A DNA stretch of 24,147 bases. Source: a virus. The position numbers were made by a program, and so were the translations under genes. Of this stretch, positions 1,143 to 23,225 are shown in pieces. The stretch is from positions 1 through 24,147 of the IMG/VR virus record IMGVR_UViG_3300018410_000047; one strand, 5' to 3'. Below the pieces are notes generated by a model that worked only from the letters and a program-made list of their open reading frames with translations, did not search any database and was not told the DNA's origin. How positions within the stretch are numbered: the first letter of the stretch is position 1; each line of letters begins with the position of its first letter.

Positions 1143-1256
1143 ATGAAGGCATTCAAAATAAAAAAAATCACACCTATCGGAATTAAAAACACCATTGATT
1201 TAGAAATTGACGACCCAGATCATAATTTCTTCTGCAATGATATTTGCGTCAGTAAT
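1143..1256 (+). other. split intein C-half (IntC, 38 aa)
   Basis: This is the coding span from Met1 to the terminal Asn38, followed by Ser as the +1 extein residue. The terminal Asn needed for cyclisation is present. The penultimate residue is Ser instead of the usual His. The length is close to that of gp41-1-type C-inteins (about 37 residues). Confidence 0.87.
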
Positions 1257-2324
1257 TCTCATGCCGTCGCCTATGCCTCAACTGCCGAAATTTGCACGTA
1301 TCTTAAATTCAATTACCCTAAAGAGTTTTTCCTATCACTGCTCATAATGTCTAAATATGAGCCAGATTCTCTCGCCGAAGTGTTTAAAATCACCCAAGAG
1401 CTAGGTCTGTTTAATATTAAACTTCTCCCGCCCGACCTATCAAAATCAAAGGAAAGCTTCTCTATTGAGGGGAACAACTTAAGATTTGGCATGGATGCAA
1501 TCAAAGGAATCTCAGAAAAGAGCATCCAAAACCTCCTAACATTTCGCGGCCACGAATTTAAAAACAAGTACGAAGTATTTCAAACCGCCAAAGACTGCGG
1601 GCTTAATATTGGCGTTCTCTGTACTCTTATTCAGGCTGGATGTTTGGATTCCTTTGGGGAAAATCGCTGCAAAACGGTCTTAGAAGCTCAGATGTTTAAT
1701 AAGCTCACAGAGAACGAAAAATTCGCTGTTCTTGAGCTTGGTGAGCATCATAATTACGACGTTTTCGCCGCTCTAAAAGATGGCGCGGAAGGAAAAATCA
1801 TTAATGCAAAAAACAAAAGCGCGTTCACTGAAAAGCGTATTCAAAAGTTGAGAGATGAGCATGGTAAATACAAAGCCATTTATGACCAGAACATTCGCCA
1901 CCAAAAATTCTGCAACTGGTATTTCGAGCGCGAAATGCTTGGGTATTCATACAGTTATACCTTACGAGAAGTGTTTGAAGAGTCAAAACACTCTTTTACC
2001 CCCATTCTAGAGTTTAATTCTCTTGACGATAATGAAACTGTGCGTATTGTTGGAGTAGTGACTGAAGTAAAAAAGACAACCTCCAAAAAAGGCAATAAAT
2101 ACATGATGCTTTCTATCTCTGATGAAAGTGGCAAACTATCTGGAATGTTTGGTGATAATGCCAAAGACAACAAATGGTCCCGCCACCTTGAAGAAAAACT
2201 ACCAGTGCCAGAAGAAGATTCTGTGGTAACGGTGGTAGGGAAGAAGTTTGGCGATCTTTTGATGATTGACAAGTTCTCAATTGTCGAAGAAACTATTTAT
2301 ACCCGCCTTTCACAAGTGAAGTAA
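1143..2324 (+). CDS. dnaE: DNA polymerase III alpha subunit, C-terminal fragment led by a C-intein half
   Basis: Residues 1-38 are a C-intein half with block F DLEIDDPDHNFFCND and end VSN, with Ser39 as the +1 splice residue. Residues 39 onward are the polymerase. SHAVAYASTAEICTYLKFNYP matches the DnaE segment after FNK. A helix-hairpin-helix region follows (about 92-175, AIKGISEKSIQNLL, then AGCLDSFG), then FEREMLGYSYSY (261-272, the KEALGLYLSGHP-like segment), and an OB-fold (about 299-385, VRIVGVVTEVKKT). The tau-binding tail of cellular DnaE seems to be missing or very short. Trans-splicing with the upstream fragment should restore the replicative polymerase. The start at 1143 is set by the intein half and by a TATAAT box 5 bases upstream; there is no Shine-Dalgarno sequence. 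A hypothetical gene follows 8 bases after the stop. Confidence 0.93.
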   Translation: MKAFKIKKITPIGIKNTIDLEIDDPDHNFFCNDICVSNSHAVAYASTAEICTYLKFNYPKEFFLSLLIMSKYEPDSLAEVFKITQELGLFNIKLLPPDLSKSKESFSIEGNNLRFGMDAIKGISEKSIQNLLTFRGHEFKNKYEVFQTAKDCGLNIGVLCTLIQAGCLDSFGENRCKTVLEAQMFNKLTENEKFAVLELGEHHNYDVFAALKDGAEGKIINAKNKSAFTEKRIQKLRDEHGKYKAIYDQNIRHQKFCNWYFEREMLGYSYSYTLREVFEESKHSFTPILEFNSLDDNETVRIVGVVTEVKKTTSKKGNKYMMLSISDESGKLSGMFGDNAKDNKWSRHLEEKLPVPEEDSVVTVVGKKFGDLLMIDKFSIVEETIYTRLSQVK

Positions 2325-5761: not shown

Positions 5762-6004
5762 ATGAGCCACACACTAGCCGTTAAATCTATAAAACTAACT
5801 CCAGAACAAGAAATTGTCGCGAGCCAAAATGAAAATAATTTCAAATTAATCCTTGAAACAAGTGCAGATGAAAATGGACACGCAATTAAAACAGAAGGGT
5901 TTGAAATTGAAGATGGAGTTATTATTAGAGGAACTTATACTACCCTCAAAAACAAGGCCGTTATCCTTTCATTCGCAAAAGGAGCGACTCTTAAAAAAGT
6001 ATAA
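5762..6004 (+). CDS. hypothetical protein, 80 aa
   Basis: I do not recognise this protein. Its composition suggests a small beta-rich fold with alternating strands (FKLILETSADENG, GFEIEDGVIIRGTY, KAVILSFAKGATL). It has no Cys, no signal peptide and no membrane segment. It sits alone, with a 52-base leader and a CGTTAAT motif upstream and a 55-base gap downstream, so it may have its own promoter. The leader ends AAAAAC-ATG with no Shine-Dalgarno sequence. Confidence 0.65.
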   Translation: MSHTLAVKSIKLTPEQEIVASQNENNFKLILETSADENGHAIKTEGFEIEDGVIIRGTYTTLKNKAVILSFAKGATLKKV

Positions 6005-8768: not shown

Positions 8769-10424
8769 TTAGGGAATATATACTGATAACGGCGCTCCAA
8801 TTGTCACGTTGCCAAAATAATGAGCCTTCACCCTATACCAAAGAGTAATTCCGAAAGCTGGAAGATTTTCATCGAAATACTGGGTATCTGAAGTATAAAT
8901 TCTCTGCAATTCTTGATAATTAGTTCCGTCAGTTGATCTTTCTAGTGCGTGGTAATCGAAAACGTCAGAAAGTTGCCACTCGACAATAACAGATTCGTTC
9001 ACTCCTTGATAAGCAGCAGACAAAATATCTGGCGCTGGACTTGGAGGGGAAACATATAAGCAAGCATTCATATCCTCTTCTGTCCAGTTATCAGCAAGAA
9101 TTAAATTATTTTCGCCATCAAGTAAGTAATTTTTCTCACAGTTTTCGTCGTAAATATACAAGAATGGGTCAATAGTCAGCAAATTTCCACTTGGGTCGTA
9201 GATTTTTCTAGAATCAGATGAGTATAAATGAGGAGGTTGAGCGCCGTCAGATAAGACTCCAAATTTCTGCATCAGTCCGCCGCTTTCGCTGCATTGGAAG
9301 GAAAAGGAAAACTCAGAAGTTACCAACTCATTAATCGGAAAACTCTGGGAGTAAGAATTTAATTTAGCCGCTTCTAATTTTAAACTTCTGCTTTCCGTGA
9401 AAAATCCAGTTGGCCCGAGCGTTCCAGTAGTCAAGAATCCAGATAATTCAGCAAAACTTTTGCCCGATAAATAAACTTCTTGGGGGTCTAAAAAGTTCAA
9501 AACCACATTTTGTTTTTGCATTCCGCCCATGATTCCAGAAAAACTTCCAGTTGAATACTGAGAAACGATGGACGAAACATTGAGTTGCCCTTGAACAGGA
9601 TATTTAATTTTGCGCCCGCAAGGAAAATTACTGCCAAAACGATAACTCGTTTCGCGAGGAATAGAAAGTCCAAAGTCTAATGACTGAATCTTGGCATCTT
9701 TTAGCGGCGAAATAATTGCAGACGGCGTTTCTAAATTTTCCGCGCCCATATAGAATTTTACCTCAGTTGTGGGCAAAATCGGTTGAGCCTCTTTGGTTAG
9801 TTCGTCAAGCGCTACTCTAATTTGCGGCCAATCAAGAGATAAATAATGAAGCGGCGAATCTCCTGAGTTTAAATCTACGTTGGGCATTTTTACCCTGTCG
9901 CCAGAAACTATGCTTGCCTCAATGTTTGACGAAACAAAAGATGCTGTAGCTCTTGCCAAATCACTCACGCGCATAGAGAATCCATACTGAGTGATAAAAC
10001 AATTTCCCAAGGCCAAGCACTCAACGCCATTTAAACTTTCGGCGTTTCTAATTTGATTAATGAAGTCATACGACTGTTTTTCAGAGGTAAACAAATAAAC
10101 ATTAAAGCTAGACTCAGAGCGGCCATTTAAAACACTAAGAAACTCATTATTGTATCCAAAATTGAGCCCTAAAACATTTTCATTAGCAAAAGTCCGAGTA
10201 GGAATGAAAGACAAGTCAAAAGAAATCTCTGGCGCAAAACTAGGTTCTTCGTAAGCTAGTTTTTGTGAACCAACTTGACCCGCTGAAACTTTCGGAATCT
10301 CCACGCTAAAGCCAAAAGAATCTTGAAGACCCAAGAACGACAAGCCTCTTTGATCGCCGTTGCCTGAATCGTAAGAATCTACAGCGACAAGAATAGAGTT
10401 GCTTTTAATGTAATGTCTGCTCAT
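8769..10424 (-). CDS. tail-tube-like structural protein with a C-terminal FN3-like domain, 551 aa
   Basis: Two beta-rich tail-tube-like units can be seen (about 1-170 and 215-395). Both resemble the two halves of the 263-aa protein encoded upstream. SFGFSVEIPKVSAG and GNCFITQYGFSMRVSDLARA line up with similar strand patterns there. The last 90 residues have the fibronectin type III pattern (APDILSAAYQG, VIVEWQLSDVFDY, LERSTDGTNYQEL, LWYRVKAHY). It is probably a distal tail or tail-tip component. The ATG at 10424 overlaps the previous TGA as ATGA, with GGAGA placed 5 bases upstream, so translation is likely coupled. The exact tail role is inferred. Confidence 0.7.
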   Translation of the reverse strand: MSRHYIKSNSILVAVDSYDSGNGDQRGLSFLGLQDSFGFSVEIPKVSAGQVGSQKLAYEEPSFAPEISFDLSFIPTRTFANENVLGLNFGYNNEFLSVLNGRSESSFNVYLFTSEKQSYDFINQIRNAESLNGVECLALGNCFITQYGFSMRVSDLARATASFVSSNIEASIVSGDRVKMPNVDLNSGDSPLHYLSLDWPQIRVALDELTKEAQPILPTTEVKFYMGAENLETPSAIISPLKDAKIQSLDFGLSIPRETSYRFGSNFPCGRKIKYPVQGQLNVSSIVSQYSTGSFSGIMGGMQKQNVVLNFLDPQEVYLSGKSFAELSGFLTTGTLGPTGFFTESRSLKLEAAKLNSYSQSFPINELVTSEFSFSFQCSESGGLMQKFGVLSDGAQPPHLYSSDSRKIYDPSGNLLTIDPFLYIYDENCEKNYLLDGENNLILADNWTEEDMNACLYVSPPSPAPDILSAAYQGVNESVIVEWQLSDVFDYHALERSTDGTNYQELQRIYTSDTQYFDENLPAFGITLWYRVKAHYFGNVTIGAPLSVYIP

Positions 10425-12682
10425 AAAATCTCCAATCCGTGTTTTGCGCCCAAGTCTCTCATTACTTTACCAAAGTTCACGTCGCCAGTGAACAAAGCAA
10501 TCTCAGAAATCTCTCCAACAAAACCATTTTGCCCGCTTAAAATTCCGCTAGCGCCGTATCTTGGAAGACCAATCGACCCTGGCAAAACAATATTCGATGT
10601 TCCAAGTCTTGGAGCGCCAGTAATTGGTGTTTGAGAGTTAATTGAACCAGAAACAACAACGCCGCTCGTATAAATACCAACAACATTATAGCCAGTAGAA
10701 AGTTCCCCAAGCTGAGTGCTTCCCATGTTTGTTTTTGACAAGAGCTTGTTGCCAGAAACGTACATGCCACGATTCCAGTAATCTGAAAACACACACATCA
10801 TTCCACTACTCGCTGGCTTTACCACGGCAAAAATAGAATAATGAATCGGCGAATTTAAAGAATTAACCTGCGCCAAGCAAGATTCCCCATTAAATCTCAA
10901 AGCACTTCTGCCGCCAGCAAATTCATCTTTTATAATTTCTGGCTTAAGGCTATCAGATACAACGATCCTAGAAGCATCAAAATTTCTAATAGAATCATCC
11001 CAAGTGAATATATGTTCTCCATTTTGCTTGTCTTTTAGCGAGTCTTGATTAAAATACAAAACTGGCTTACCGTAACCAGAAACATCTAGCGGCGTTTTCG
11101 CGTTATCGAAAGAAAGATTCCATCCTCTCCATCCAAGAACGGCGAAATCATTTAATGAACTGGCTGGCAGAGGAGAATTAGAGGCAAAATCCACATAATT
11201 AGAATCTGCCGCTAAAAATTCCCCAGAAAAGTTCTCGTAGTTCACTAAAGCATCAAGGGCCGAAGAAAAAGAAGCGCCGCTAATCTTATTTCCGCCGCAT
11301 TTAATCCCAGTGATTCCAGAACACCTTGTTAAATCCAAGGATGAGATTCTGTTGTTGGAAATGTTCAAACTCTTCAAAGATTTCATTAAGCCTAAGTCAA
11401 GCTCCTTTAATGAGTTATTTGATAAATCGACGTAAGAAAGTTTCTTGTTATTGGAGAAATTAATTGTCTCAAGATTGCAAGAACTTAAATCCAGTTCTCT
11501 CAACGAGCTAGATTCTGCAACATTGAACGACCACAAAAACTGATTGTGCGCCTCAATTTTCTCTGGAGCGCCGAAAATTGAAACTGTTTGGGGCGAGTTT
11601 TGCCAATTAATTTTAATTTCCCCGTCACTGAAAACATTTTGAATATCTCCTGACTTGATAACCGTTGCGCCGTTCTGGCTTTCGAGAGAGAACTCTAAAT
11701 GGTCAGTGGAATCTCTTTGAGAAAAAGAAACGCTTGGAGAATTATTCTTGGGCAAAATGCCTAGCGAATCTTCCACTAAATCCAACTCAACAGTGTTCGA
11801 GTTTTGAAAAATCCATGTATGCCTCCACGTTGGGCAATAAAAAACTTTCGGGCGATTGTAGATTTTTGGAATCTGATATTGAAATTTTAATTCGCCGAAT
11901 TTACTTTCCGCAAAATGAAGAATAGCTTTTGTTTGAACGTCGCTAAGACCTTCAAATTTCAGCGTTAAGTTTTCAATAGAGTGAATGTTTTTCTTTGTCT
12001 TTATTCGAGAATAGAAAGAGTTGTTGAACTCCATCTTTGAAACATCAGGCTTTGATGAAATTGAATAATCAAGAGACTCGTTTAAGAAAAGATTTTGCGT
12101 CCACAAACTTCCAGAGGAGAATGGGCCGTTTTCGTAAGTTGAAAAATGTTCGCCCGTGCAATAAAAGTAATTGTTGAATTTATTTTGGCCGTCATAGTCA
12201 AAATATCTAATCTCATAAGGCTGAACAAGTTCCCCAGTTTTCCAAATTTTAAAAGTGTTATCGACAAAAGCTAATCCACTCCAATTTAATTGCGGCGAAC
12301 GATTGTCAACAACTGCTTTTAAGGATATGTCGTTTTCAAGATTTCCTTTTGTGGCCCAAGAAAATTCATCAGCAAAACCTGTGATGGGCTTATAGATGCT
12401 AGAAGAGTCAGAAAGAGAAACGGGCAAAACGCCGCTTCTAGATTCTAAGTAGTTGATTAACTTTTGAGCGTTAGCGTCATTAAGCTGAAAAGATAAATCA
12501 TACTCTGCGATTACAGAGTTTAAGGATTGGCCCATTCTTCTGTTGACTCTGTTTGGATAAGTCAGAGAATTAGCTCTCGTAGAAAACGTGACGCTTGATC
12601 CAAAAATTGGCTGATATTCAATAGTCTCTAAATCAGAGATGCCTGAAATGTTTCTATCCCTATCGTAAAATAAGTCGCTCAC
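10421..12682 (-). CDS. minor tail protein with gpM-like domains, leucine-rich repeats and a lectin-like C-terminus
   Basis: Two regions resemble the lambda gpM minor-tail fold. The first is about 30-127 (EYDLSFQLNDANAQKLINYL). The second is about 216-305 (LTLKFEGLSDVQTKAILHFA, FQYQIPKIYNRPKVFYCPTW, TVELDLVED). Residues 393-470 hold three to four leucine-rich repeats (LRELDLSSCNLETINF, LSYVDLSNNSLKELDL, LKSLNISNNRISSLDL). The last 150 residues (YSIFAVVKPASSGMMCVFSD to GFVGEISEIALFTGD) look like a LamG/concanavalin-type lectin jelly roll. This suggests a tail-tip protein that touches the cell surface. The start is GTG at 12682, fixed by the GTGA overlap with the previous gene and a strong GGAGG 9 bases upstream. 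Confidence 0.75.
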   Translation of the reverse strand: MSDLFYDRDRNISGISDLETIEYQPIFGSSVTFSTRANSLTYPNRVNRRMGQSLNSVIAEYDLSFQLNDANAQKLINYLESRSGVLPVSLSDSSSIYKPITGFADEFSWATKGNLENDISLKAVVDNRSPQLNWSGLAFVDNTFKIWKTGELVQPYEIRYFDYDGQNKFNNYFYCTGEHFSTYENGPFSSGSLWTQNLFLNESLDYSISSKPDVSKMEFNNSFYSRIKTKKNIHSIENLTLKFEGLSDVQTKAILHFAESKFGELKFQYQIPKIYNRPKVFYCPTWRHTWIFQNSNTVELDLVEDSLGILPKNNSPSVSFSQRDSTDHLEFSLESQNGATVIKSGDIQNVFSDGEIKINWQNSPQTVSIFGAPEKIEAHNQFLWSFNVAESSSLRELDLSSCNLETINFSNNKKLSYVDLSNNSLKELDLGLMKSLKSLNISNNRISSLDLTRCSGITGIKCGGNKISGASFSSALDALVNYENFSGEFLAADSNYVDFASNSPLPASSLNDFAVLGWRGWNLSFDNAKTPLDVSGYGKPVLYFNQDSLKDKQNGEHIFTWDDSIRNFDASRIVVSDSLKPEIIKDEFAGGRSALRFNGESCLAQVNSLNSPIHYSIFAVVKPASSGMMCVFSDYWNRGMYVSGNKLLSKTNMGSTQLGELSTGYNVVGIYTSGVVVSGSINSQTPITGAPRLGTSNIVLPGSIGLPRYGASGILSGQNGFVGEISEIALFTGDVNFGKVMRDLGAKHGLEIL

Positions 12683-22286: not shown

Positions 22287-22307
22287 TTTTCCTGTTCCTT
22301 GTTTTTC

Positions 22308-22337
22308 TTTACACGAAAGCGCGAATAAGTGTAATAT
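22308..22337 (+). promoter_or_regulatory. sigma70-like promoter overlapped by an inverted repeat
   Basis: TTTACA (22308-22313), an 18-base spacer and TAATAT (22332-22337) form a good promoter read rightward. The expected transcription start is about 22343-22346, which is exactly where the structured RNA begins. TTACAC (22309-22314) and GTGTAA (22329-22334) form a perfect 6-bp dyad with a 14-base centre, covering both promoter boxes. The half-sites lie two helical turns apart, as for a dimeric regulator. The site could control the ncRNA, the leftward tail operon, or both. Confidence 0.55.
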
Positions 22338-22343
22338 ATAGAG

Positions 22344-22804
22344 ACATAACCAAAGGCCAGTCGTAGGCTTTTTTACGACCAGTTGACAAGGATGAATGCA
22401 ACCGCAACGCTGTTTTTAGGGCAGTTTTCAGCAGTTGCCGACATTTAACATGATGGGTAAAATCAGAGTTAAGTGTTTGCCGTGGGGAGAACCCAGTTAA
22501 GATTCCATCGTATCGCATTAGGAGAAATCCGAAGGGGCGAGAAACCAACTTGAGGCACAACGTCTGTTCGATTCGTCAGCTAACCCAGCGGTTTCAACAG
22601 TGCCCAAGTGTTCTATGAGTTTAACCTAGCATAGAATTAAGGCGAGGAAGACAGATAGGCGCAAGCCGAACTATACCGACAAAGCATTCTAAACCTTCAA
22701 TGGCTGAAATAGTATCTCCTCACAAAGGCAGACAAAAAACTGCCCGACTGCCCTAAAGGGTAAGAAACTTAGAGAGTAAAGAGTACTTAGAATATAGAGT
22801 TATG
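22344..22804 (+). ncRNA. large structured noncoding RNA, about 460 nt, family unknown
   Basis: This 530-base gap holds no credible protein gene but many helices. The ends can pair: CATAAC (22345-22350) with GTTATG (22799-22804). Local helices are GTCGTA/TACGAC (22360-22379), GCAACGCTG with CAGC-A-GTTGC (22404-22438), CTTG-A-GGCAC with GTGCCCAAG (22549-22608, extended by TGTT/AACA), TTCTATG/CATAGAA (22611-22636), AGCATT/AAT-G-GCT (22683-22705), GGCAG/CTGCC (22727-22744) and CCC-TAAA-GGG (22751-22760). GNRA tetraloops close GGC-GCAA-GCC (22658-22667) and GGA-GAAA-TCC (22521-22530), which favours the + strand. GAAACC (22541-22546) could pair with GGTTTC (22590-22595) as a pseudoknot. It resembles ornate phage RNAs such as ROOL or GOLLD only in size and setting. 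No U-tract terminator is seen, so it may be processed from a transcript that runs into RNase HI. Confidence 0.65.
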
Positions 22805-22805
22805 C

Positions 22806-22811
22806 TATTAT
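22806..22811 (+). promoter_or_regulatory. -10-like TATTAT box before RNase HI
   Basis: TATTAT is followed by 6 bases (AACTAG) and the ATG at 22818. This is the same tight spacing as at dnaE-C, the endonuclease, the APH-like gene and the 252-aa gene. There is no Shine-Dalgarno sequence. Confidence 0.3.
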
Positions 22812-22817
22812 AACTAG

Positions 22818-23225
22818 ATGGTTTACATAAATACAGATGGTTCTTATGATCTTTCCTCTGGACAAGGAGGATGGTCTTATGTAATAAATGGGAAAAGCTT
22901 CTCTGGAATGGAGTTCTCGGAAACAACATCGAATAGAATGGAATTGACTGCCGCGATTAAAGCCTTGTCTCACTTCTTAGACCCTCAAGAGATAATTATC
23001 CTGTCGGATTCCCAGTATGTAGTAAGTGGAGCCACTAAGTATATTCATAAATGGTTAAAGAACGGGTGGAAAAACTACAATAATAAACCCGTAAAAAACC
23101 AAGACTTATGGGAAAAACTTTTGGCCGCGAAAAATAATCACAACCAAGTTGTATTTAAATGGGTGCCGCGAAAAAATAATTCAGCCGCAGATTTATCCGC
23201 CAGAAAAGCAAGGCGTGTAAATTAA
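22818..23225 (+). CDS. rnhA: ribonuclease HI
   Basis: It degrades the RNA strand of RNA-DNA hybrids, for example primers in phage replication. All four metal-binding acids are present: Asp7 in INTDGSY, Glu42 in NRMELTAA, Asp64 in ILSDSQYV and Asp125 in NSAADLSARKA. The basic handle region is recognisable (HKWLKNGWKNYNNKPVKNQD). The 135-residue length is slightly short of the E. coli enzyme (155). The loop between the last strand and the last helix (WVPRKNNSAAD) is shortened and lacks the His of the GHAGH loop, as in some viral and retroviral enzymes. No Shine-Dalgarno sequence precedes the ATG; a TATTAT box lies 6 bases upstream. The next gene starts 3 bases after its stop. Confidence 0.93.
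   Translation: MVYINTDGSYDLSSGQGGWSYVINGKSFSGMEFSETTSNRMELTAAIKALSHFLDPQEIIILSDSQYVVSGATKYIHKWLKNGWKNYNNKPVKNQDLWEKLLAAKNNHNQVVFKWVPRKNNSAADLSARKARRVN

Follow-up and report, generated by a model that had tools for sequence, protein, structure and literature searches.

The DNA analyzed here, called the window throughout, is an IMG/VR fragment of 24,147 bases and belongs to an uncultured phage. A gene-free gap (22287-22817) is flanked by a gene for a 96-aa protein on the minus strand and by an RNase HI gene on the plus strand. The preliminary description of this DNA had already claimed such a gap, and on its plus strand we indeed found no frame of at least 40 aa. A tRNA search of the window yielded none. 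Elsewhere in the window, positions 10421-12682 (minus strand) encode a protein of the tail region that has a minor-tail match and contains leucine-rich repeats. The features in and around the gap were:

22309-22314, minus strand: late-promoter-like GTGTAA (TTACAC on the plus strand) of the divergent 96-aa gene; the motif occurs upstream of the group's structural genes
22329-22336, plus strand: late-promoter-like GTGTAATA of the RNA, conserved in L002 and L003; predicted start at about 22343-22344
22344-22765 (3' end approximate), plus strand: conserved noncoding RNA, delimited by an identity plateau and a conserved-structure test
22818-23225, plus strand: RNase HI gene, 135 aa (PF00075, E=1e-31; nearest PDB relatives are E. 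coli RNase HI)
23215-23222, plus strand: late-promoter-like GTGTAAAT of the next gene, within the final codons of RNase HI; a similar motif precedes the homologous gene at empty sites

Two relatives were reached by searching with the RNase HI: G001 (148,420 bases; L002 and other loci) and G002 (28,412 bases; L003). In both, the element lies at the same place and is 87-88% identical to the window copy. The three known members of the RNA represent about two lineages, L002 and L003 being 98% alike in the RNA, and the phage contigs compared are incomplete. By blastn against the INPHARED phages and plasmids, no match to the element was obtained, and a DNA pattern scan with GCCGTGGGGAGAACCCNNTTAA retrieved the two known relatives and nothing further. 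The sole extra match to AACTATACCGACAAAGC (L040) and a match to GTGGGGAGAACCCNNTTAAGA in GTDB genomes (L041) were both rejected as homologues, each being a chance match within a coding gene. Divergent homologues may have escaped the pattern scans, which register only exact short matches in the viral and genome collections. Several other features of G001 were recorded. Its two tRNAs are located at about 90.6 kb, some 36 kb away from the RNA. The terminase large subunit (L013:9407-12556) is interrupted by an intein carrying a LAGLIDADG domain, a TnpB-like transposase gene lies at L013:5219-6388, and L008:14075-15427, near sugar/LPS-type genes, encodes a phosphoribulokinase/uridine kinase domain fused to a class II aldolase domain. 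Parts resembling polymerase III alpha occur as separate genes, the HHH/OB part in the window (1143-2324) and the PHP part in G001 (L008:863-1618).

Comparison of the window with L002 disclosed a sharp plateau of 89% DNA identity at positions 22344-22760, as against 62-68% in the neighbouring genes and 71% in the RNase HI gene. Directly outside the plateau, identity was 77% (22287-22343) and 57% (22761-22817). Its 5' edge coincides with the predicted transcription start, while its 3' edge lies about 50 bases ahead of RNase HI, giving a conserved RNA of approximately 400-420 nt that ends at about 22750-22765. The start at about 22344 given in the preliminary description agrees with both the plateau edge and the spacing of GTGTAATA; its proposed extension of the RNA to 22804 went beyond the conserved part. 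The RNA region is constrained more strongly than the surrounding proteins. The gap sequences of the window and the relatives differ by several one-base insertions or deletions and a long frame common to them was not found in the RNA region, which disfavours a protein-coding function. An 83-aa frame on the minus strand (22309-22560) was rejected because it is not kept in L002. In G002 only, GGGTAAGAG-type repeats are expanded at the RNA's 3' end (L003, about 5905-5960).

Folding of the single sequence proved little and could reflect chance, since the z-score against shuffles was modest (about -1.8) and alike on both strands. For comparative testing, the window and L002 were brought into a curated alignment of 407 columns with 35 substitutions, which had been adjusted by hand at 22516-22532 beforehand. 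Its RNAalifold consensus comprised 98 pairs, of which four were supported by compensatory and three by G-U-compatible changes, and none was broken. In a permutation test, the same substitutions were redistributed 300 times, with sites treated as independent, and each sequence pair was refolded. The structure conservation index of the plus strand amounted to 0.959 (null 0.79 +/- 0.04) and its energy to -97.5 (null -81.3 +/- 5.1), values which were not reached in any of the 300 permutations. The four compensatory pairs likewise exceeded the null mean of 0.88 (P=0.003), whereas the number of broken pairs carried no information here, as refolding brought it to zero in the null alignments too. On the reverse strand, the index (0.81) was at the level of its null (0.80). 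An earlier substitution test using the uncurated alignment had given a mixed result, the L002 fold showing an excess of broken pairs over expectation. Since the permutation signal was confined to the plus strand, we concluded that the structure is conserved there. With about two lineages at hand, the fold as a whole is strongly supported and single helices are weakly tested.

The element is almost certainly a conserved structured RNA, as its conservation surpasses that of its coding neighbours, compensatory changes occur, the structure signal belongs to one strand and a frame is lacking. A large noncoding structured RNA on the plus strand had been proposed from the letters of the window, together with covariation as a check; the comparison with relatives and the strand-specific signal confirmed this proposal, and the compensatory pairs between the window and L002 amount to thin covariation per helix. 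In the model of the RNA, a long-range stem encloses a multibranch structure, with the following predicted elements:

22355-22399 (22355-22358, 22382-22391, 22394-22399), plus strand: 5' side of the closing stem P1-P3 (RNAalifold), with compensatory pair 22397/22686
22360-22379, plus strand: hairpin between the 5' segments of the closing stem (RNAalifold)
22404-22438, plus strand: hairpin P4 with GGGCAGUUUU in its loop (RNAalifold); a G-C/G-U change is kept
22419-22428, plus strand: 5' side of a candidate pseudoknot, GGGCAGUUUU in the P4 loop, complementary over 10 bp to 22736-22745
22441-22476, plus strand: hairpin P5/P5a, with compensatory pair 22449/22468 (C-G to U-A)
22477-22645, plus strand: multibranch domain closed by P6 (22477-22481/22641-22645; RNAalifold), matched by model R1
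22521-22530, plus strand: GNRA hairpin GGA-GAAA-UCC (GGAGAAAUCC), conserved in all three phages
22548-22609, plus strand: long hairpin P8-P10, with compensatory pairs 22557/22601 and 22566/22598
22610-22637, plus strand: hairpin P11 of 8 bp, invariant
22658-22667, plus strand: GNRA hairpin GGC-GCAA-GCC (GGCGCAAGCC), conserved, with a GAAA loop in the relatives
22684-22705, plus strand: 3' side of the closing stem P1-P3 (RNAalifold consensus)
22736-22745, plus strand: 3' side of the candidate pseudoknot, AAAACUGCCC, competing with a local hairpin at 22728-22743

The many helices and the two GNRA loops noticed beforehand were thus recovered, and both loops are conserved in the relatives. The possible pseudoknot stands as a candidate whose 10-bp complementarity was read directly from the sequence; as both of its sides are invariant apart from loop length, covariation has no bearing on it. 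Another outcome was obtained for the pairing suggested between the two ends of the RNA (CAUAAC at 22345-22350 with GUUAUG at 22799-22804). Its 3' side falls into the stretch of 57% identity and the relatives read CAUAUC on the 5' side. A closing stem at the extreme ends was therefore rejected as not conserved, the stem being predicted instead between 22355-22399 and 22684-22705.

The motif GTGTA was strongly enriched at positions -12 to -17 of gene starts, with eight occurrences in G001 (0.28 expected) and four in L023 (0.05 expected). In the window, GTGTAA(A/T) was seen 12-30 nt ahead of structural-gene starts at 22329 and 23215 and, on the minus strand, at 22314, 20250 and 8768; genes of G001 and L023 are preceded by it as well. 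GTGTAA is probably the late promoter of this phage group, and the predicted RNA start lies 14-15 nt downstream of it. The promoter TTTACA-18-TAATAT of the preliminary description had led to the same predicted start position, but it overlaps the phage-specific GTGTAA, which is the better-supported signal and had been missed. A Shine-Dalgarno signal was not seen in G001 (10% of the upstream regions versus 6% of shuffled ones). Together with the spacing of GTGTAA, this suggests that late mRNAs of the group lack leaders, and many late genes may thus be leaderless. For RNase HI, a GTGTAA-type motif of its own was not found, nor was a terminator-like site on the plus strand between the RNA and this gene; the two are therefore probably co-transcribed. 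From these signals we infer late expression of the RNA and its co-transcription with RNase HI.

The product of the RNase HI gene contains the Pfam RNase_H domain, and its catalytic acidic residues D7, E42, D64 and D125 are invariant in the three copies. Beyond the two relatives, a scan for this protein revealed L044 only (39%), whose DNA did not resemble the RNA. With covariance models R1 (the multibranch domain, 22477-22645) and R2, 14 records were searched, resulting in one copy in each of the three phages and none in the 11 relatives. Most of the latter records are fragments and some are near-duplicates (e.g., L032 and L033); the more distant ones had been retrieved with p283, a neighbouring structural protein, as the query of a scan. 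RNase HI was not found in G003-G013 either. At the empty sites, seen in G003 (L023), which is a closer relative, and in every p283 relative whose sequence spans this position, the flanking genes are adjacent with starts usually about 50 bases apart, and a GTGTA motif precedes the right-hand gene at those inspected. In L038, where the 96-aa gene escaped detection, there is likewise no room for the RNA and RNase HI. While the phages carrying the RNA exhibit GTGTAA at both edges of the insert, empty sites contain one forward GTGTAA-like motif. In some distant relatives, the tube-like protein (384-aa family) is encoded by two tandem copies (L029:7067-9400, L032:8923-11250).

According to this distribution, the RNA and RNase HI form an accessory cassette of about 1 kb between two structural-gene operons. 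In a protein tree, G003 grouped with G001 and G002 while the window remained outside, with weak support (75/71); the cassette may either have been gained once and lost in G003 or have been gained twice. Because its structural genes are shared with relatives in which the RNA was not found, the RNA is not needed for building heads or tails in general, and a role as core packaging or virion RNA was excluded.

The element was also compared with known RNA families. Rfam 15 gave nothing at the gathering score in the window and only meaningless matches at E<=10, and at this threshold there was no match in L002. The Rfam models of GOLLD, ROOL (at E<=10 too), OLE and HEARO did not match, and neither did those of group I and group II introns; the RNA also resides between intact genes. 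ARAGORN and Rfam gave no indication of a tmRNA or a tRNA-like RNA. The suggestion of a new family made from the window alone was thus upheld by the Rfam search, also in the relative. A likeness to ROOL and GOLLD had been suggested too, of which the large phage RNA remained, while a family match, a tRNA cluster and a comparable size did not, the element being smaller. As a whole, the earlier interpretation was accurate as to a large structured RNA, which matched no Rfam family; the end stem and a membership in ROOL or GOLLD were not supported, and the accessory cassette with RNase HI had been overlooked. We class the RNA with the large structured phage RNAs, as a new family that has a new gene partner.

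Taking these data together, we consider it somewhat probable that the whole of the following statement applies: the element is a late-expressed, trans-acting structured RNA of a new family that is co-transcribed with RNase HI. The late-type phage promoter GTGTAATA would drive transcription of the plus strand and the transcript would fold into the multibranch structure with its long-range closing stem. Late in infection, the folded RNA may act in trans as a scaffold, in an RNA-protein particle or by binding a factor of the host or the phage; RNase HI mRNA would be supplied by this transcript as well. Action in trans is what we infer; the main rival is a cis-acting RNA, namely a large 5' leader controlling RNase HI as a riboswitch, a protein-binding leader or by translation control. 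Such a leader would be compatible with the position directly 5' of RNase HI, which is devoid of an own late-promoter motif and of a preceding terminator-like site, with an RNA 3' end no more than about 55 nt away from the start of this gene, and with the joint absence of the RNA and the gene from relatives. However, compared with the gene under its presumed control, the RNA is far larger and better conserved (89% versus 71%). The final 50 nt or so by the start codon are unconserved and contain no conserved switching helix. As many late genes of the phage are seemingly leaderless, judging from spacing, we regard control of RNase HI by a leader as possible though unlikely. It is quite doubtful that the RNA and RNase HI constitute one functional unit, the RNA working via RNA-DNA hybrids which its RNase HI processes or removes, for instance in R-loop-based priming or in an action against host DNA or a defence system. 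If true, this would be a two-part system of an undescribed kind.

Less likely than a leader are a primer-type and a mobile-element RNA. A structured RNA of similar size to ColE1 RNA II beside an RNase HI with catalytic acidic residues could point to a hybrid that is trimmed by the enzyme to yield a replication primer. This function is improbable, as relatives without the cassette must replicate otherwise, G001 encodes DnaG-like and DnaB-like proteins, a clear skew switch marking an origin is missing at the RNA and the promoter is of the late type. The clean presence or absence at one site and the GTGTAA at both insert edges, compared to one motif at empty sites, would fit a selfish unit of RNA and RNase HI, in which the RNA serves as guide or mobile agent like that of OMEGA/HEARO. 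Yet what is repeated at the edges is the promoter motif of the phage itself, and ordinary recombination between promoters therefore explains the repeats. Moreover, HEARO and intron models were unmatched, each genome contains one copy always at the same site and RNase HI is not known as a transposition enzyme, which makes a mobile element distinctly improbable. The location in a divergent promoter region between operons might also suit a conserved DNA element with only incidental folding, namely a site for packaging, partition or recombination. We deem this extremely improbable, since the conserved-structure signal and the G-U-compatible changes pertain to one strand only, about 400 bases are long for a DNA site and close relatives do not possess it.

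Among known systems, phi29 packaging RNA is a structured phage RNA as well, and the RNA described here lies near structural genes, but relatives whose head and tail genes are the same do not contain it. ColE1 RNA II, also structured, requires RNase HI for its action, in that case the enzyme of the host; in contrast, the phage studied here has primase-like and DnaB-like proteins of its own, and its RNA is accessory. HEARO/OMEGA RNAs resemble it in being inserted along with a nuclease gene, and the RuvC fold is related to that of RNase H. They differ in that the neighbour found here is an ordinary 135-aa RNase HI (PF00075, RNase_H) rather than an IsrB/TnpB or HNH-type protein, and in the fixed single site. 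OLE, a bacterial RNA with protein partners of its own (PMC12286853, PMC9723947), is likewise a long structured RNA of unsettled biochemical function, whereas the present RNA is encoded by a phage and has no Rfam match.

Large structured phage RNAs are few. ROOL and GOLLD, which occur in phages and prophages and form RNA-only cages, are among them and are without settled function; ROOL is often found near tRNA islands. Both have been described as large phage RNAs of unknown role, and many GOLLD members exceed 800 nt (PMC12286853). The RNA of the window shares with them its large size, the predicted multibranch fold, the phage origin and possibly late expression. It differs by its length of about 400 nt, the missing family match, the missing tRNA cluster nearby and the pairing with RNase HI. 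It is smaller and comes with a natural set of relatives lacking the cassette. The example illustrates that comparing uncultured phages can uncover RNA families outside Rfam. Unlike ROOL and GOLLD, this RNA offers a functional handle in its linked RNase HI, the biochemistry of which is known.
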